A stretch of DNA of 64,000 nucleotides from Mucilaginibacter terrigena (lineage in GTDB: Bacteria > Bacteroidota > Bacteroidia > Sphingobacteriales > Sphingobacteriaceae): assembly GCF_004168255.1 (NCBI RefSeq), contig NZ_SEWG01000003.1, positions 248,001 through 312,000 on the forward strand, read 5' to 3'. The notes under the pieces were generated by a model, which saw only the letters and a program-made list of their open reading frames with translations, was not told the DNA's origin and searched no databases. Shown here in pieces: positions 51,916-60,804 of this stretch. Every line of letters starts with the position of its first letter. Position 1 is the stretch's first letter. Made by a program: the position numbers and the translations under genes.

Positions 51916-54900
51916 CTACCTGAAATTTCTTCCTTTATAAAACACCTCTTCTTGTTTACCGGCTTGTTGTTCGCCCTTGTTGCCACCGTGATGTGGTTTA
52001 GTAGTTTCATCCGCCCTTGCCATTAAGAACGGCAGTTTATCTTCAATGGTTTGTGTTAATCCACGTAACATACTATTTAGGTTAAAGCATTTGTTGGCTA
52101 CCACATGGATTACTTCACCTTCTATCTGTAAATAGCCCTGCACCATAAATAAACGCGATTGGATGATCTCTTTTCGATACATATCAAACAGCCTTTGCCA
52201 AACTACAATATTGGCCGCTCCCGTTTCGTCTTCCAATGTCATAAACAATACGCCTTTAGCAGTACCTGGCCGCTGGCGAACGGTTATTAAGCCTGTTACT
52301 TTCACAGCTTCGCCATCTTCCATTTTTTTCAGATCAGCAATTTTTGTGTTATGCAGTAAAGCCAGTTTTTCGCGAACCAAAGCAACCGGGTGATTTTTCA
52401 GGGACAAGCCCGTCGATGAATAATCCTGCACCACATGCTCACCTTCTGACATTAATGGTAATTGTACCTTTACCTCTTTTACACTTTCTGATAGCGTATC
52501 TTCAAACAGAGCCATTGGCCTATCCCCTAAAGCCGATACTTCCCACAATGCTTTACGGCGATCTAAACCTAATGAACCAAAGGCATCTGCATCGGCCAGT
52601 ATTTCTAAAGCAGCTTCAGAAATACCAGCGGTGCATAGTTGATTAATGTGGGTATATGATGCTTTACGTGCAGCTATAAGTAATTGCATATCATCTTCAC
52701 GCAATCCTTTGATTTGCCGGAAACCCAACCTCACTATATGATGTTCGCCGTTTTTTTCTTCTAAAATATTATCCCACAAAGAGTAGTTTATGTCAACGGG
52801 TAAAACCTTAACGTTATGATCTATTGCGTCACGTACTATTTGTGCCGGCTGATAAAACCCCATAGGTTGGCTATTGAGCAATGCCGCGCAAAATACATCA
52901 GGATAATAGCATTTTAACCATGATGATATATAAACCAATAAGGCGAATGATGCTGCATGGCTTTCAGGGAAACCATAGCCTTCAAAACCTTGTAATTGCT
53001 TAAATACCCGCCTTGCAAAATCTTCCTCATAGCCATTTTTGAGCATGCCTTTTACCATCTTATCTTCATAGAGGCCAAGTTTACCATTGGCCTTGAAACT
53101 TGCCATGCTTCGCCTAAGCTCATCAGCTTCAGCAGGCGTAAAACCAGCTGCAACAATGGCTATTTCCATTGCCTGTTCCTGAAATAATGGAACTCCTAAT
53201 GTACGCCCTAATATGTCCCTTAACTCTTGGGATGGATAATCAACAGGCTCTTCCTTGTTCCGCCTGCGCAGGTAAGGATGCACCATATCGCCCTGAATTG
53301 GGCCGGGTCGAACAATGGCTACTTCTATCACCAAATCATAAAAGCATTGTGGTTTGAGGCGTGGCAACATGGACATTTGCGCCCGGCTTTCAATCTGAAA
53401 TACACCAATAGTATCTGCATGGCAAATCATCTCATATACTTTTGGGTCATCCTGCGGCACATTAGCTAAGGTTAGCTTTCTGCCGTAGTGTTGTAGTACT
53501 AAATCAAATGCTTTGCGGATCATGGTGAGCATGCCCAAACCCAAAACATCCACTTTTAGAATTCCTAATGCTTCCAGGTCATCTTTGTTCCACTCCAGTT
53601 GAGTGCGGTTTTCCATTCGCGCATTCATTACCGGGCATAGATCTGATAGTTTATTATCCGTTATAACAAACCCACCCGTATGCTGCCCCAGTTGCCGGGG
53701 AAAACCCATCAGTTGGGTAGTTAATTGCAGCACTTTATGAATAAGTGGATCATTAGGGTTTAATCCCTGCTCCCGTAAGCGCTTTTCATCAAAACCTTCT
53801 TCACTAAAATCCCAAATAGTAGCACCTACGCGTTTGATGGTGTCTTCAGATAAACCCATCGCTTTACCGGCATCACGAATAGCCCCACGGTGACGTTCTT
53901 GCGTTACTGTAGCAACAATGGCGGCATGTTCCCGCCCATAATATTCGTAAATATGCTGGATAATTTCCTCGCGCCGCTCATGTTCAAAATCTACATCAAT
54001 ATCAGGCCATTCTTCCCGAGCATCAGACATAAATCGAGAGAACAACAAGCGGGATTTCATCGGGTCTACCGCTGTGATGGATAAGCAATAGCAAACAGTT
54101 GAGTTAGCTGCTGAGCCTCGCCCTTGATGCAGAATACCTAATTCTTCTGCCTTTTGGGTATACTTATATACCCGCAAAAAATAGGGTGCCAAATTTCGTT
54201 TTGCAATAAAGGCTAACTCAAATTCGATTTGATCAGATACTTTCTTTGGTATTTCACCAAACCGCTCATGTGCGCCAGCCCAAGTGTATTTGGTTAACCG
54301 TTCCTGAGGTGTAAGGCCATCAACTATTTTTTCTTCAGGCTCAATATATTTTAAGGTATCTAAAGAGAATTGACAGGCATCTGCCACTACCAAAGCATTT
54401 TCAATTGCTTCAGGATATTGCCGAAACAAACGATATATTTCATCTACAGGTTTGATAAACCGCTCGGCATTGGCGTGCAGCTTAAATCCGGCTGTATGTA
54501 TAGTGCATTTTTCCCGGATACAGGTTAAAATATCCTGCAATTCACGCCGGGTTAATTCATGATAATGCACGTCGCCTACAGCTACCATAGGTATGCCTAA
54601 TTTTGATAAGCGCGCTAATCTTTTAGCATCATCGCCGCTATACGATCGGGTGGCTGCGATATATAAAGAGCCACCAAATTCACCTTTATATTCATTTACA
54701 TTTCTTTTAAATCCATTATCATAGTCAAACCTTGCGTTCAATTCATCTGGTGGGATGATGATAAACTTAATCCCTTCTTTATGTGCATAAACATCTGTTT
54801 TATACAAATGGCATTCTCCTTTTCCAGCCCTTAAGTTACCAACCGTTAATAATGCTGAAAGCCTGCCATAAGCATCGCGGTCAGTAGGATAAGCAAGCAA

Positions 54901-55122
54901 GCTTGCCCCATCTAACAGATCAAGCCTGCAAGCAGGAATAAATTTGAGATTTAATTTTTTTGCTACGATATGGGCACGAACAATACCCGCAAGGCTATTT
55001 CGATCAACTATGGCGATAGCATCATAGCCATATAAAGACGCTTGCTCAACCAATTCTTCAGGATGTGACCCACCCCGCAGGAAGCTAAAATTTGATGTAG
55101 TTTGTAATTCAACGTACCTCAT
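51916..55122 (-). CDS. dnaE2: Error-prone DNA polymerase III alpha subunit, DnaE2/ImuC
   Basis: From the ATG at 55122 this is 1068 residues. The N-terminal PHP domain opens MRYVELQTTSNFSFLRGGSH in the DnaE2 style. The catalytic Asp pair is in EEWPDIDVDFEHERREE, followed by QERHRGAIRDAGKAMG and DVLGLGMLTMI. A C-terminal OB domain (VKVTGLITVRQRPGTAKGVL) is present. It is the translesion polymerase of the ImuABC mutasome. The start lies two bases after the imuB stop. An in-frame opening at 55152 overlaps imuB and is rejected. Confidence 0.95.
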   Translation of the reverse strand: MRYVELQTTSNFSFLRGGSHPEELVEQASLYGYDAIAIVDRNSLAGIVRAHIVAKKLNLKFIPACRLDLLDGASLLAYPTDRDAYGRLSALLTVGNLRAGKGECHLYKTDVYAHKEGIKFIIIPPDELNARFDYDNGFKRNVNEYKGEFGGSLYIAATRSYSGDDAKRLARLSKLGIPMVAVGDVHYHELTRRELQDILTCIREKCTIHTAGFKLHANAERFIKPVDEIYRLFRQYPEAIENALVVADACQFSLDTLKYIEPEEKIVDGLTPQERLTKYTWAGAHERFGEIPKKVSDQIEFELAFIAKRNLAPYFLRVYKYTQKAEELGILHQGRGSAANSTVCYCLSITAVDPMKSRLLFSRFMSDAREEWPDIDVDFEHERREEIIQHIYEYYGREHAAIVATVTQERHRGAIRDAGKAMGLSEDTIKRVGATIWDFSEEGFDEKRLREQGLNPNDPLIHKVLQLTTQLMGFPRQLGQHTGGFVITDNKLSDLCPVMNARMENRTQLEWNKDDLEALGILKVDVLGLGMLTMIRKAFDLVLQHYGRKLTLANVPQDDPKVYEMICHADTIGVFQIESRAQMSMLPRLKPQCFYDLVIEVAIVRPGPIQGDMVHPYLRRRNKEEPVDYPSQELRDILGRTLGVPLFQEQAMEIAIVAAGFTPAEADELRRSMASFKANGKLGLYEDKMVKGMLKNGYEEDFARRVFKQLQGFEGYGFPESHAASFALLVYISSWLKCYYPDVFCAALLNSQPMGFYQPAQIVRDAIDHNVKVLPVDINYSLWDNILEEKNGEHHIVRLGFRQIKGLREDDMQLLIAARKASYTHINQLCTAGISEAALEILADADAFGSLGLDRRKALWEVSALGDRPMALFEDTLSESVKEVKVQLPLMSEGEHVVQDYSSTGLSLKNHPVALVREKLALLHNTKIADLKKMEDGEAVKVTGLITVRQRPGTAKGVLFMTLEDETGAANIVVWQRLFDMYRKEIIQSRLFMVQGYLQIEGEVIHVVANKCFNLNSMLRGLTQTIEDKLPFLMARADETTKPHHGGNKGEQQAGKQEEVFYKGRNFR

Positions 55123-55124
55123 AG

Positions 55125-56621
55125 CTATGCAAAAAATCCGTGTAAGTACCATTGCGGGGCAGCATCGTAATGGCCTGATCTGAATAGCCAGTATCTTTGC
55201 CCTTCAGCATCTTCAATCGCATAATAATCGCGGTGCACACCTTTGTCCTGCCACCATTCGCGCTCAATACGTTCTGGGCCATCCGCTTTTTCTACTATGT
55301 GCCGCTTACCTTTGTAAGTAAAAACCTTTGGTGGATAATCAGGCAGTAACGCCATTACTTCAACAGGTTCGGGATGTTGCAAAAGGCGTAAAGGCCTTGG
55401 CCTATCGTTTCGCCATTTAGTTGTCGGCACATCTGTTAAGGATGAAGTTTGTTTAATCGCACGCTCAGGCCAATAATTTTCTGATGGTAAATAGCGATAT
55501 ATTGCTTTAGCGCCAATTTTACCGGCTAACTTATCTAACAATTCTGCCAAAGCCGTATCCTGCAGGCCGGGCTTATCAGCCCAGAGTTTTTCCTGTAAAG
55601 GATCAATATCTTCTACTTTGGTTGCTTCCATAAGGAATAGCTCAATGCCTAATGCCGGTTCTATTTTATTAATCTGTAACTCAAAAAGTTTAAATAAATG
55701 TGACACGCTATGCGAACCGCGATTGGTGCTGATCTTTGCATGCACCATTTTGCCATCAATCCGATAACATTTTAATGTGGCTTTACGAATGCCTTTACCC
55801 TCCGACTGTAAGCGTACACACAAACTTTCCAATAATTTTGTGATAGCGATTTCAATAGCTTTAGCCGTTCTTACTGGTTCAAGACAAGGCAACCTTTCTG
55901 TATTAGGTATTGGTGGAATAAGTGGAACAAGGTGCTCGTCTTCAACCCCCAAAGCCTGAGCCAACCTCAATAAAAAGCCGTCACCAAATCGCCTGCGCAA
56001 TACAGTACGTGGAATTTGCATAAAGCTTTTGATGGTAGCAAAACCTAATTTTTGTTGTTTTTGAAGTACAGCATCTTCTAACCGCAAAGCTATTGGGGGC
56101 AAGTTAAGCAACGCTTGTGCTTGTTCACCGCTGCCTACAATAGGTGTTATTTTTCCATAATGGCTGATAGCCCAGGCAGCACCAATAGTATCGGCAATAG
56201 CAGCCCTTGCATTATATCCTGATGACCGTAGTTTATTTACGATCTCCTTCAAATAACCACGTTCATCCTTCCATAAATGAGCACAGCCGGATATATCTAA
56301 TATCAGACTATCAGGCAAATCAACAGCTACTATTGGTGTGTATCTGATGCACCATAAGCCTAATTGCTTTAACAGTTTAGCCTCCTTACCAGGTAAGTGA
56401 TCCACAACTTGCAAGTTGGTGGTAATAGCTTTGGCATCAGCCGCCGCCATTCCTCTATAAATACCCTGGGCTTCTGCAATAGGGTTGGCAGCGGTAATAA
56501 TAATGCGGTTACGTTCAGGGGCAACAAAAGCAAAAGGCACATCTTTTAATTCCGGCTTGCGAAGTGTCAGCCAATCCGTCGTCAAATGACGAAACCATAT
56601 TACCATGTAACGCTTTTGCAT
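55125..56621 (-). CDS. imuB: ImuB, Y-family polymerase-like mutasome hub
   Basis: This 498-residue protein has a Y-family polymerase fold, but the catalytic acids look replaced: the segment that should hold the first Asp reads MVIWFRHLTTDW, and the second reads LILDISGCAHLW. That matches ImuB, which is inactive and links ImuA, DnaE2 and the beta clamp. The thumb and little-finger regions follow, then a C-terminal part (EREWWQDKGVHRDYYAIE) shared with ImuB proteins. It lies between imuA and dnaE2. Confidence 0.92.
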   Translation of the reverse strand: MQKRYMVIWFRHLTTDWLTLRKPELKDVPFAFVAPERNRIIITAANPIAEAQGIYRGMAAADAKAITTNLQVVDHLPGKEAKLLKQLGLWCIRYTPIVAVDLPDSLILDISGCAHLWKDERGYLKEIVNKLRSSGYNARAAIADTIGAAWAISHYGKITPIVGSGEQAQALLNLPPIALRLEDAVLQKQQKLGFATIKSFMQIPRTVLRRRFGDGFLLRLAQALGVEDEHLVPLIPPIPNTERLPCLEPVRTAKAIEIAITKLLESLCVRLQSEGKGIRKATLKCYRIDGKMVHAKISTNRGSHSVSHLFKLFELQINKIEPALGIELFLMEATKVEDIDPLQEKLWADKPGLQDTALAELLDKLAGKIGAKAIYRYLPSENYWPERAIKQTSSLTDVPTTKWRNDRPRPLRLLQHPEPVEVMALLPDYPPKVFTYKGKRHIVEKADGPERIEREWWQDKGVHRDYYAIEDAEGQRYWLFRSGHYDAAPQWYLHGFFA

Positions 56622-56624
56622 GGC

Positions 56625-57350
56625 TCATCCTACTTTTTGTATTTGATGTTCTAATTGTTCTTTCAGTATTGGTGTAAACCCAGTATCCGACCATTCAACA
56701 ACCCAATTACCCGGTTTGCCATTGCGTACGCGCAACAACTCAACCTGCCAGCGGGGAAACCCCAAACCCGGCAACCCGTCTATTGCTTCGCTTGCTAAAG
56801 GTTTAACATGCCATCTCGCAGCACAAGCAGTTGATCCCATTTTATTTGATCTGTTACGGAGTATAAAACCGGTTACACCGCTTTGTTCTACGGCCAACTG
56901 TAAACGCCTCGATTGTTTAAAATCAACCTCAGACAATTCTCCTACAACAGCTGTTAGACCGGCACACTTCAAAGCTTCCTCCATCGCCCATAACACATCT
57001 TTGTCTTTTTTAAGCTGGATAAAAATTATTCTGTCAGGCTCAACTTCAAATGATCTTAGCGCTACTGGGTACATATTTCCGGATAGGCTTATCCATAAGC
57101 ATGCCCCGCTATTCTGCATTAATACTGATAGTAGGCCACTGATAAAACCACTTGAAGCAGTGGCCTGTTCCGTATTATCACAAACTAATTCATGTACGGC
57201 ACGTATGGGGAATATACCATTCGGAAAGTTTGCCTCAATAGTATTTAAACCAAATAACTTCCTTTCACTAAGAGAGGGCGGCTTGTAACCTTCCCATTGC
57301 AAAATATTTTTCTGCAAACTGTTAATCAATTCTCTTTTGTTATCGGCCAT
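56625..57350 (-). CDS. imuA: ImuA, RecA-like mutasome protein
   Basis: From the ATG at 57350 this is 241 residues (a GTG one codon earlier is possible). It has the ImuA/SulA-RecA-like core: GIFPIRAVHELVCDN near residue 45, ACLWISLSG for a degenerate Walker region, and VELLRVRNGKPGNWVVEW near the C-terminus. ImuA supports translesion synthesis by DnaE2 and ImuB. It is first in the operon, three bases before imuB. Confidence 0.9.
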   Translation of the reverse strand: MADNKRELINSLQKNILQWEGYKPPSLSERKLFGLNTIEANFPNGIFPIRAVHELVCDNTEQATASSGFISGLLSVLMQNSGACLWISLSGNMYPVALRSFEVEPDRIIFIQLKKDKDVLWAMEEALKCAGLTAVVGELSEVDFKQSRRLQLAVEQSGVTGFILRNRSNKMGSTACAARWHVKPLASEAIDGLPGLGFPRWQVELLRVRNGKPGNWVVEWSDTGFTPILKEQLEHQIQKVG

Positions 57351-57368
57351 CACAAATAATTACTAATA

Positions 57369-57406
57369 CAAATCTATGCTAATATTTTTAGCAATTCATA
57401 TGAATT
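57369..57406 (-). promoter_or_regulatory. imuA promoter and palindromic operator candidates
   Basis: On the minus strand TAGATTTG (57376-57369) matches the -7 box and a TTG lies at 57394-57392 (15-base spacing, slightly short). Between them GCTAA-tattt-TTAGC (57378-57392) is a five-base dyad, and just upstream AATTCATATGAATT (57393-57406) is a perfect 14-base palindrome. A repressor bound at either site would block imuA. Which regulator binds is unknown. Confidence 0.5.
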
Positions 57407-57435
57407 ATTACAAAATATTTTTCACTTTTGTTTTG

Positions 57436-57708
57436 ATGATAAACAATGCTTATTTGGTTAATGATGCCCGGGCTTGGATTAAACGCATGAACCAACCAGA
57501 TGAGGTGGTGCGTATTATATTAGATTTAGACAGCAAAGATGCCGCGTTGTGCTACCTTTTATATACAGAATATGAAAAAGACCCTGATTACTTTGGCAGG
57601 ATATTATTTGATGCACAAGGGTACTGGATTTATGATGGAGACATTTTAACAATAGCAGAGCAGGAACAGGTAGCAAAGTTCATCGTTAATTATGTAGAAA
57701 CCGTTTGA
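57436..57708 (+). CDS. Small protein divergent from imuA, unknown function
   Basis: From the ATG at 57436 this is 90 residues, acidic, starting MINNAYLVNDARAWIKRMNQ. An in-frame start at 57376 would add a hydrophobic 20-residue leader but overlaps the imuA promoter. CACTTTTG at 57423-57430 is one base from a -7 box, six bases before the ATG. I recognise no domain. Placement suggests coregulation with the mutasome. Confidence 0.55.
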   Translation: MINNAYLVNDARAWIKRMNQPDEVVRIILDLDSKDAALCYLLYTEYEKDPDYFGRILFDAQGYWIYDGDILTIAEQEQVAKFIVNYVETV

Positions 57709-58586: not shown

Positions 58587-59168
58587 TTAAGCGGCGGTGC
58601 ATTTAAGCCACTCTTTCAATTCTTTCAGGTTGTAAAATATCGGTTTGCCAATTTGTTGGTAAGGCATCCCTTCTGCCCGTAGCCTAAGTAATTTACTTTT
58701 GCTCATGCCTAACATTTCAATCACTTTCTTTTCGGGTACAAGCTCAGGGTCAAAGCTTGGTTTAAATTCGCTAAAATCTTCGTCAGCGCCGTAGGCGTTT
58801 ACTGTTGCCAACCCAGCTACCGCCATTATTTCCTCGATTTCCGCATCAATCCATTTCACAGGATTATAAAATTTCTGTTCATCGATTATTTCCGATATAT
58901 GTTCATCATATAAACCTTCGAACGCTTTATAGTGTTCCGGCTCTGGTGTTCTTCGCACCTGAACCGCCAGTTTTTTGAAATAGTACAGGCATGGAAGAAC
59001 ATCTTTCTTTGGCAATTTTTTGATAGTGGCTTCAATGAACTCAATAAATTCTTTGTTTACATACAACCATTTAATGTCCCTTTTAAGCTTTAATTTAAAC
59101 TCATGTGTAAGACGCGGCGAAGCATAGTATTTACGGGTTTGTATCTGTTTTACGGTGTTATTTTTCAT
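58587..59168 (-). CDS. Excisionase-like helix-turn-helix protein
   Basis: This 193-residue protein has a basic N-terminal part of unknown fold and a C-terminal MerR/Xis-type helix-turn-helix (about 143-190: VPEKKVIEMLGMSKSKLLRL, then GKPIFYNLKELKEWLK). Such proteins near integrases act as excision or element regulators. It is 19 bases downstream of the integrase and ends in a terminator, so the two form an operon. Confidence 0.75.
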   Translation of the reverse strand: MKNNTVKQIQTRKYYASPRLTHEFKLKLKRDIKWLYVNKEFIEFIEATIKKLPKKDVLPCLYYFKKLAVQVRRTPEPEHYKAFEGLYDEHISEIIDEQKFYNPVKWIDAEIEEIMAVAGLATVNAYGADEDFSEFKPSFDPELVPEKKVIEMLGMSKSKLLRLRAEGMPYQQIGKPIFYNLKELKEWLKCTAA

Positions 59169-59187
59169 TGATTTAAATGGTTAGGGT

Positions 59188-60291
59188 TTAAATATGCAGT
59201 AAGGTTGCCTGGTGGTTTTCGATTTTCTGTTTCCCGTGATTAACCGCCTTACTGTAGGTGTCAGCAAGTTTTTCCATGGATTTTACAAGGTTTGTTTTGG
59301 CGGGTTTGATATAAGTTTGAGTTTGCGTTATTCTTGCATGCCCCATAAGTTCCATCATAATAAATGGGTTGATATCAGCCTGAACAAGTGAAGACGCGAA
59401 CGCATATCGCGCTATGTGAAAAGTGACATTTTTAGTAATGTTGGTCTTTGATATCAATATCTTTAATTCCCTGTTGAGGACTTGATTGGTCATTTGGGGC
59501 ATTATGGTCAAGCCAACGGTTTTGATCTTGTGCTTGGTATATCTCTCCAAAATAAGTTTGGCATCTGGTAAAACAGGTATTGTTACCACCTTTTTGGTCT
59601 TCTGCATTTCGATTACAATTAGATTAAGTTCCGCATCTACGTGCTCAAAAGATAATCGCATAATATCGCTATAACGTAGTCCTGTATAAACAGATAACAA
59701 GAATATATCCCGCACCCTGTTTAAAAAACCATTCTTTTCTGGGATCAATAGTGTTTTTATCTCCTGAATTTCAGCTACAGTCAAAGGTTCACGTTTACTT
59801 ACCGTGGACTTTACCTCAAAGTGCCTATAAGGGTAATTACTTTCCTTTATTAGCTCTTTTTTTATAGCTTCACGTATCACTGCACGCAAACATTTGTGCC
59901 GCCCCCATCGACCGTTAAGTGAATTACCCCTTTTTTGACTCATATACACATCAAACTTTTGAATAAAGGCATAAGTTAGATCACCAAATGAAGCCTTTGG
60001 CGCAAATTTCTTGAGGACGTTTAATGTCGACCGATATGTTTTAAGAGTATACATCTTCTCCCACCAACTTTTCATTTGTGCCGCGAGTATCTGATTTATA
60101 AATTGGTTAGCTTTAGTATTGTTTTTTAAACAACCGCTTTTACTGTCCCAATCGCTTGCCTGGATGTATTTCCCTGTTGACACCCGGTTAGTTGCACCTC
60201 CTACGCGTATAGAAAGATTTAACGGATATAGACCGTCTTTGCGTTGCTTGTCATGCCTGATAACAGGCCTTATATTAATCGAATTTTTCAT
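59188..60291 (-). CDS. Tyrosine site-specific integrase
   Basis: This 367-residue recombinase has an Arm-binding-like N-terminus (DGLYPLNLSIRVGGATNRVS), a SAM-like core domain (about 70-150) and a catalytic domain with Arg206 (YTGLRYSD), His292 and Arg295 (FHIARYAF), His318 (MGHARITQ) and nucleophile Tyr327 (TQTYIKP). All catalytic residues are present. It is of the phage/ICE integrase type common in Bacteroidota elements, which often target tRNA 3' ends. Confidence 0.93.
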   Translation of the reverse strand: MKNSINIRPVIRHDKQRKDGLYPLNLSIRVGGATNRVSTGKYIQASDWDSKSGCLKNNTKANQFINQILAAQMKSWWEKMYTLKTYRSTLNVLKKFAPKASFGDLTYAFIQKFDVYMSQKRGNSLNGRWGRHKCLRAVIREAIKKELIKESNYPYRHFEVKSTVSKREPLTVAEIQEIKTLLIPEKNGFLNRVRDIFLLSVYTGLRYSDIMRLSFEHVDAELNLIVIEMQKTKKVVTIPVLPDAKLILERYTKHKIKTVGLTIMPQMTNQVLNRELKILISKTNITKNVTFHIARYAFASSLVQADINPFIMMELMGHARITQTQTYIKPAKTNLVKSMEKLADTYSKAVNHGKQKIENHQATLLHI

Positions 60292-60381
60292 GTCGATGGG
60301 TTTATTTTACTGGCTAATCTCCAGCGAGTTATTGGAAAAATAAAGTTTTTGATTAAGTTTATTTTAGGACAATACATTGAT

Positions 60382-60804
60382 TTACAGATGCTTTCGAGCG
60401 TTTCTTAATCTTTGCTCGGCTTTATGTGATAATCTACAACCCTCAGGAATTCTTATTGGTAACTTAGGATAACGTTCCATCAGAGTATCAAATCTTATGT
60501 AAATTCGAGAAGGGTGCTCGCGATCTCTTTTGTATGAAGTTTTAATGATTTGGTTATCCTTAAGTTCTTTTTTATATTTTTTTAACATCGTTTCCTTCAA
60601 TGCCATTTTTTTACAAAGGGTTTCAATACCGGCATAGCAATACCCTTTATTCTTACAGTAGGAGTTAATGATGAGAAATAGTATCCTCGCTTGAAAACTC
60701 AAGTTCTGATCCTCGACTATAGCAGCCGGAGCATAAAAAAAAACTCGTCCAATTTCATACTGTCCCCATTGATTTTCAAATTCTTGATTTCGTGTCTTTT
60801 TCAT
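60382..60804 (-). CDS. Winged-helix replication- or element-type protein
   Basis: This 140-residue protein has a winged-helix-like region: AILFLIINSYCKNKGYCYAG-like helix, then IETLCKKMALKETMLKKYKK and LKDNQIIKTSYKRD, typical of helix_turn_helix_36/RepA-type starts found in plasmid and phage replication proteins. The C-terminal half is basic. Upstream (higher coordinates) is a 700-base gap with hairpins, which could be its binding region. Exact role unknown. Confidence 0.6.
   Translation of the reverse strand: MKKTRNQEFENQWGQYEIGRVFFYAPAAIVEDQNLSFQARILFLIINSYCKNKGYCYAGIETLCKKMALKETMLKKYKKELKDNQIIKTSYKRDREHPSRIYIRFDTLMERYPKLPIRIPEGCRLSHKAEQRLRNARKHL

Follow-up and report, generated by a model that had tools for sequence, protein, structure and literature searches.

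The stretch of DNA analysed here (the window; 64,000 nucleotides) spans positions 248001-312000 of contig 3 in the 4.28 Mb assembly of Mucilaginibacter terrigena. It contains an ImuA-ImuB-DnaE2 mutasome cassette and, divergent from imuA across a spacer of 85 base pairs (bp; 57351-57435), a small gene for an acidic protein of 90 amino acids. The spacer holds an operator common to both transcription units, and the small gene apparently represents a conserved, undescribed family that is preceded by an SOS (DNA-damage response) box and has defined repair neighbours. The genes and spacer elements, by window position, are as follows.

51916-55122, minus strand: dnaE2, error-prone DNA polymerase III alpha, the mutasome polymerase (NCBIfam PRK05672, 1329 bits; cut-off 939)
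55125-56621, minus strand: imuB, Y-family polymerase-like mutasome subunit, between imuA and dnaE2 (Pfam IMS, E 4.7e-13)
56625-57350, minus strand: imuA, RecA/SulA-like mutasome subunit (NF033429 ImuA, E 2.2e-19, 70 bits, below the 150-bit cut-off)
57369-57376, minus strand: TAGATTTG, -7-like promoter box of imuA, 1 base from the operator (by an assumed consensus)
57378-57392, no strand: operator GCTAATATTTTTAGC, CTAA-N5-TTAG, SOS box of the Bacteroidetes non-canonical LexA, common to imuA and the small gene
57393-57406, no strand: AATTCATATGAATT, perfect palindrome directly after the dyad, unconserved and probably due to chance
57423-57430, plus strand: CACTTTTG, candidate promoter element in a conserved T-rich block just 5' of the small gene, seen by eye, with a presumed role
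57436-57708, plus strand: small SOS-box gene, 90 amino acids, acidic, with five predicted strands and a C-terminal helix, divergent from imuA

Conservation of the small gene and of its SOS box

The longest open reading frame (ORF) at the small gene has 110 codons and starts at 57376, so that its first 20 codons span the operator and some sequence beyond it (the residues MLIFLA are the operator translated). The ATG at 57436 was chosen as the start because sequence conservation begins there. The closest named match of the protein, from Mucilaginibacter sp. MD40, is 86% identical, and a comparison of the two genes gives nonsynonymous (dN) and synonymous (dS) divergences of 0.074 and 0.783, with 6, 7 and 28 changes at the first, second and third codon positions. 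Judged from this substitution pattern, the small gene is under purifying selection.

The box accompanies the gene almost without exception. An iterated hidden Markov model (HMM) search of the loci returned 60 distinct copies, 58 of which are preceded by an exact box at no more than 300 bp; counted from the first conserved residue, 57 of these boxes are 49-117 bp upstream and one is 260 bp upstream. Among the 59 copies from named GTDB genomes, a set that shares many species with the first and is not independent of it, 58 have the box within 340 bp upstream, whereas the rest of these loci holds 8 sites in 533,095 bp, or about 0.005 expected per 340 bp. Pooled, 89 distinct upstream windows carry the box. 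The misses are locus L084 and a copy in genome G071 (L020 = L159), which lacks the box in both sets. The box is also kept where imuA is not nearby, as before a paralogue in the same genome that precedes cdd1 (L065) and in Daejeonella lutea and Hufsiella arboris (L171, L199). It is therefore very probable that the small gene is under SOS control. The divergent small gene pointed out in an earlier reading of the sequence alone is borne out as a conserved gene.

The operator and the SOS regulon of the genome

The dyad of the window reads GCTAA-N5-TTAGC, with a core of exactly CTAA-TATTT-TTAG. The sequence-only reading had supposed that the dyads of the spacer differ from known LexA boxes, which is wrong: CTAA-N5-TTAG is a published operator of Bacteroidetes S24-family regulators (PMC8565304), and a new operator type is rejected on the same ground. 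As described in the sections of that paper covered here, Bacteroidetes are without canonical LexA and have S24-family repressors that bind GGA-N5-TCC or CTAA-N5-TTAG; binding of the latter by S24 regulators was demonstrated by electrophoretic mobility shift assay, together with induction of the targets by mitomycin C. The same sections place imuA-imuB-dnaE2 in the predicted regulon, with evidence for regulation through CTAA-N5-TTAG in several species, and count the Sphingobacteriaceae among the families with large regulons (PMC8565304).

The corresponding regulon can be recognized in the M. terrigena genome. Twenty regions, chosen mostly for sites with AT-rich spacers, cover 23 of the 50 listed CTAA-N5-TTAG sites (51 in total), and 13 of the 23 are intergenic. 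The intergenic boxes stand before or beside the gene of an XRE-S24 regulator of 259 amino acids and genes that read as recA, umuC and dinB with a divergent SRAP gene; further neighbours are radical-SAM genes of the COG4277 and SplB kinds, a DnaQ-type exonuclease, DprA and an MgsA/glycosylase pair. A few intergenic boxes lack a repair gene nearby. The names of these neighbours were assigned by reading the sequences, and the S24 protein alone was scanned for domains. Recurrence of the motif at a gene that reads as recA and at the LexA-like S24 gene, which the sequence-only reading had put forward as a check, is observed.

The XRE-S24 regulator (L123:1416-2195, G000:C1) matches HTH_3 and Peptidase_S24 over the cut-off, and a box lies about 22 bp before its start. 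By eye, and with no alignment to a known member, the stretches KASAGYL, GDSMLP and VVYKRA correspond to the Ala-Gly site and the Ser-Lys dyad. A box at the promoter, an XRE-S24 repressor with a box of its own and boxes at genes that read as core SOS genes together fit a non-canonical LexA regulon. A second exact CTAA-N5-TTAG is found inside the S24 gene (L123:2041-2055), and a third at about L123:1330, between the end of the S24 gene and the next gene, some 10 bp before the start of the latter. The umuC-like gene (L225:334-1614, G000:C1) has its SOS box about 19 bp upstream.

The regulon resembles the published one in its operator, in the kind of repressor, which has its own box, and in its targets, which overlap in recA, dinB, umuC, imuA-imuB-dnaE2, SRAP and SplB-type radical SAM (PMC8565304). 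It differs in that no small gene divergent from imuA is named in the sections of that paper covered, and its main text contains no occurrence of AlkB, hypothetical, uncharacterized or helix-hairpin. The regulatory half of the locus, that is, operator and regulon, is already known, and the small gene is the new part.

Within the spacer, the operator adjoins a promoter. CTAA-N5-TTAG appeared in 55 of 20000 shuffled spacers of 85 bp. An exact TAnnTTTG, which we take to be the Bacteroidota -7 element, lies within 13 nucleotides after the box in 16 of the 29 imuA loci that have the site, as is expected for an operator that overlaps a promoter; in the window the -7-like box is one base from the dyad, and the overlap proposed earlier stands. 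Among the 30 best-scoring imuA matches, 29 are preceded by an exact box at a distance of at most 350 bp, and the sole miss has only 2 bp of upstream DNA. The perfect 14 bp palindrome that abuts the dyad, also pointed out in the sequence-only reading, is present and is probably chance: such a palindrome arose in 749 of 20000 shuffled spacers, six exist in the window, and one of 88 distinct box-bearing upstream regions, the window's own, has it at this place (a 12 bp palindrome occurs in 6 of the 88). On the shuffles and on this lack of conservation, the palindrome was rejected as a second operator.

The family and its predicted structure

Matches to the small gene were found in 73 of 149 genomes by a single-sequence search (E <= 0.01, remote partial matches included). 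Two SOS-boxed types can be distinguished, A (that of the window) and B, which are alike over their last two thirds (A-B profile match of 64 columns); B-type proteins start with MKSKLF and their genes are divergent from an imuA cassette of a second kind. A remoter C type of about 95-130 amino acids, with relatives in many of the genomes, has the last 43 residues in common. In a set of 13 C-type loci, 12 hold an ORF; 11 of these are without a box, and the twelfth (L216) is B-like. One C-type relative (L213:3064-3450), ending in WIYDGD...EQEQLANF, overlaps an apparent SRAP gene at the end of the latter and is divergent from dinB-like and dnaE-like genes, another context of the SOS type. At L088:2048-2938, a B-type small gene and alkB share one frame of 296 codons, either a natural fusion or a frame error.

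With the A1 profile (E <= 0.001, remote C-type matches counted), 57 of 301 family genomes were hit, in 5 of 25 genera. The named loci belong to Mucilaginibacter, Daejeonella, Hufsiella and Sphingobacteriaceae or Bacteroidetes bins, mainly to Mucilaginibacter; a bin labelled Rhodoglobus (L196) is taken as a misplaced contig. A search of viral contigs, plasmids and phages yielded no confirmed relative of the small protein, and a mobile or phage gene was rejected on this basis.

No scanned and listed member matches a Pfam family above the cut-off, and the window protein has no NCBIfam match. The sole PHROGs match of the window protein, to a family with no known function, is at E 0.066, and the three other proteins scanned gave nothing. 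A weak likeness to YopX (PF09643) extends over about 38 residues round the WIYDG stretch in 20 of the 59 members (E <= 0.5); the window protein scores 17 bits against a gathering cut-off of 22.4, and membership was rejected. UmuD (S24) and YolD (PF08863) are not among the 13 families matched by the 59 members at E <= 0.5. Among the open-licence papers listed for the subject, no title points to the small gene.

An AlphaFold2 model built from 59 sequences has a predicted local distance difference test (pLDDT) value of 85.9 and a predicted template-modelling score (pTM) of 0.77. The modelled protein consists of five strands (residues 10-15, 23-29, 38-44, 52-58 and 64-67) and a helix (73-84). The invariant residues (Leu57, Phe58, Asp59; Trp64, Ile65, Tyr66, Gly68; Glu75, Gln76, Glu77, Gln78; Phe82, Ile83) lie in or beside the last two strands and the helix. 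The protein is acidic, members having a median isoelectric point (pI) of 4.6 and a highest value of 8, and the Pfam scan of members revealed no helix-turn-helix (HTH). A search of PDB sequences gave nothing better than E 0.16. The beta-rich model, the median pI and the lack of a significant fold match in the PDB argue against a DNA-binding regulator and fit a role in protein contact. A clamp-binding motif in the small protein (EQEQLAKFI) is not claimed; the segment lies in a confident helix and is altered in B-type proteins.

The mutasome cassette and its surroundings

The three mutasome genes lie on one strand with gaps of 2-3 bp (starts as chosen), the arrangement of an ImuA-ImuB-DnaE2 operon. 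DnaE2 is over its cut-off, ImuB is placed through the IMS match, and ImuA is the best NCBIfam/Pfam match of its gene yet remains below the cut-off. Gene order and family matches uphold the mutasome cassette named in the sequence-only reading. Relatives of imuA occur in 72 of the 149 genomes (single-sequence search, E <= 1e-10). The locus has the gene order and the three gene families of known ImuA-ImuB-DnaE2 cassettes; it differs from them in that its operator also serves a divergent small gene. In some other species, that gene stands first in a small-cdd1-alkB operon opposite the cassette (3 of 59 loci).

Just past the small gene, window positions 58587-60804 encode a tyrosine integrase, a protein with a sub-threshold HTH/excisionase match and an HTH_36 protein. 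An island may have been inserted here beside the cassette, because the nearest relative (L036) carries other genes in place of this stretch. B-type cassettes (L085-L104) often have an extra ORF of about 95-120 amino acids (MVPFNLELEF...) between the operator and imuA, on the imuA strand, possibly an additional gene of the mutasome operon. At L010:1163-1433 and at L146, fragments of a second imuA adjoin a small-alkB pair, besides an intact imuA cassette, as if left from a decayed duplicate cassette.

Genomic neighbours

Across the 59 named-genome loci, imuA is divergent from the small gene in 31: alone in 20, with alkB in 8 and with both cdd1 and alkB in 3. The neighbourhood that the sequence-only reading had proposed to check in other genomes is thus a recurrent one. 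Where imuA is absent, cdd1 lies downstream in 8 loci and alkB in 4, umuC lies upstream in one and dnaE2 in one (L189). Altogether alkB is downstream in 15 loci and cdd1 in 11. Representatives of these partners score over the Pfam cut-off as a 2OG-Fe(II) oxygenase of the AlkB type (PF13532) and as Cdd1 (PF11731), a helix-hairpin-helix protein. The fullest arrangement, dnaE2-imuB-imuA, operator, small-cdd1-alkB, is found at L145, L147 and L179, and the paralogue in the window's own genome, 67% identical, overlaps the start of its cdd1 gene. Gene neighbourhoods have served before to find SRAP and ImuB-C as SOS components (PMC3765255), in a report whose main text contains neither 'Bacteroidetes' nor 'AlkB'.

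The AlkB-type proteins beside the family (L066:5334-5942 and others) carry QL[SCAT][FLI]F close to the N-terminus, as in MEQLSFFAEAG and MEQLTLFAP. This start is seen in at least 38 of 40 alkB ORFs, a number that includes duplicates between loci, the other two being an incompletely listed sequence and a fused ORF. It resembles what we take to be the sliding-clamp-binding pentapeptide.

Proposed role of the small protein

The interpretation we favour, and consider moderately probable, is that the small gene encodes an SOS-induced accessory protein that acts by protein contact in lesion tolerance or repair and is not a DNA-binding regulator. The resident XRE-S24 repressor, a non-canonical LexA, would bind CTAA-N5-TTAG at 57378-57392 and repress the small gene together with the imuA-imuB-dnaE2 operon opposite it; upon DNA damage, RecA-stimulated self-cleavage of the repressor would release the two transcription units. 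The product would be a soluble, acidic, beta-rich factor working through protein contact, as does UmuD' and as is proposed for YolD in other phyla, and it would serve several repair modules: ImuA-ImuB-DnaE2, the AlkB-type oxygenase, the Cdd1-type helix-hairpin-helix protein and, in one instance, UmuC. We infer repression and release from the published system and the position of the site, and infer the protein contact as well. Taken by itself, an accessory role in repair falls a little short of an even chance.

Several observations weigh against this interpretation. The genome has 51 exact CTAA-N5-TTAG sites, compared with 41 for a reversed control pattern; the site count alone is little above chance, a lone site proves little, and it is conservation that carries the case. 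Ten of the 23 sites in the chosen regions lie inside ORFs. Fourteen of the 59 copies have no recognised repair neighbour in their flanks (in 5 of them the flanks are under 5 kb on a side), and the repair neighbours of the others may reflect the shared operator alone. In G071 (L020 = L159), the copy behind umuC is interrupted by a stop codon and has no box. The range of the family is narrow: with C-type matches counted, the A1 profile hit 58 of the 300 genomes in the order sample, from 6 of 17 genera. All hits fall within the family to which the window belongs, the family and order samples overlap, and one order match (G414) is short and contains stops. The fold suggests no activity, since Foldseek against the PDB and BFVD found no match at E <= 0.001; on the VIA list the best match, HAT1 (Z 5.6), is within noise, and the uracil-glycosylase inhibitors UGI (1ugh; Z 4.5) and SAUGI (3.4) are unremarkable.

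The sequence-only reading had offered three roles for the small gene, a regulator, an anti-mutasome and a fourth subunit. The last, a polymerase manager that binds ImuA, ImuB or DnaE2 in a place like that of UmuD' or YolD, is unlikely, though it accounts for the 31 loci where one operator serves both directions, for the copy behind dnaE2 (L189) and for the broken one behind umuC (L159). The small gene is seen in the flanks of 12 of 30 imuA loci and absent from 18, two of which are cut short, and copies exist in alkB and cdd1 operons without imuA. Among same-genus genomes, incomplete ones included and relatedness ignored, an A-type copy (at least 60 bits) is present in 43 of 72 with imuA (E <= 1e-10, single-sequence) and in 10 of 18 without detected imuA (p 0.79). 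Omission of G002, G033, G039 and G071 changes these counts to 42 of 72 and 7 of 18 (p 0.19), and removal of all copies with a stop in the match to 40 of 72 and 6 of 18 (p 0.12), a lean towards imuA genomes that would suit a fourth subunit. An obligate partnership with ImuA is not supported, although the comparison is sensitive to broken copies.

Small beta-rich SOS partners do exist elsewhere. In the sections of PMC6511836 covered here, UmuD' is described, and YolD proposed, as a small SOS partner of Y-family polymerases with an SH3-like core, and UmuD' and YolD/YqjX share with the present family small size, beta-rich structure, an SOS box and frequent encoding near lesion-bypass polymerases. 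The small family differs in lacking a match to the S24 or YolD models and a tight co-occurrence with one polymerase cassette, and in standing also beside AlkB and Cdd1 genes. The genome's two S24 proteins found, the SOS regulator and a protein of 231 amino acids, are not UmuD-sized. Across 41 genomes, again with incomplete ones included and relatedness ignored, and with UmuD-like proteins defined by an open-frame length of 145-174 codons alone, an A-type copy is present in 3 of 12 that have an S24 protein of UmuD size versus 17 of 29 that do not (p 0.085); for an A or B copy the figures are 7 of 12 versus 20 of 29 (p 0.72), or 8 of 12 (p 1.0) when one short G001 copy is added. By analogy, the family might manage lesion bypass in Bacteroidota in the manner of UmuD' or YolD, as a new kind of small beta-rich SOS partner that replaces a missing UmuD and serves the AlkB and Cdd1 modules too, a proposition we regard as rather improbable.

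Known SOS division inhibitors are small and lineage-specific, with variable neighbours. The small protein could likewise be an SOS-induced checkpoint or growth brake of the SulA kind with no direct part in DNA chemistry, being lineage-specific, SOS-boxed and sometimes multicopy, with variable neighbours of its own; its repeated placement in operons with repair enzymes and the compact fold of the model speak against this, and we consider such a brake decidedly unlikely. An anti-mutasome that restrains DnaE2 or ImuB after damage would agree with the shared operator, with the position opposite imuA, with the acidity of the protein and with its weak structural likeness to uracil-glycosylase inhibitor, itself within noise. 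Its presence in genomes without detected imuA and in AlkB and Cdd1 operons makes this role very unlikely. Comparably small is the probability that the gene is a passenger from a wider small-protein superfamily that came under the control of an SOS promoter while its role has nothing to do with damage: the boxless C-type relatives (11 of 12 ORFs) would suit it, and the box kept in 58 of 59 copies and the repeated repair contexts do not. Divergent position is common for regulators, but a local DNA-binding regulator of imuA has a negligible probability, given the absence of an HTH in Pfam, the beta-rich acidic protein and an operator that is explained by the S24 regulator and kept at imuA loci where the small gene was not seen.

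The favoured interpretation, an SOS-induced accessory protein acting by contact, connects an unnamed family of small proteins with a defined operator of the damage response, in a phylum where the description of SOS regulators dates from 2021. For the study of lesion tolerance and of induced mutagenesis in Mucilaginibacter and related bacteria, it also provides a short list of candidates, namely the small gene, cdd1 and alkB. Should the protein prove to manage polymerases, or to connect lesion bypass with the direct repair of alkylation damage, it would be a new component of the SOS response.

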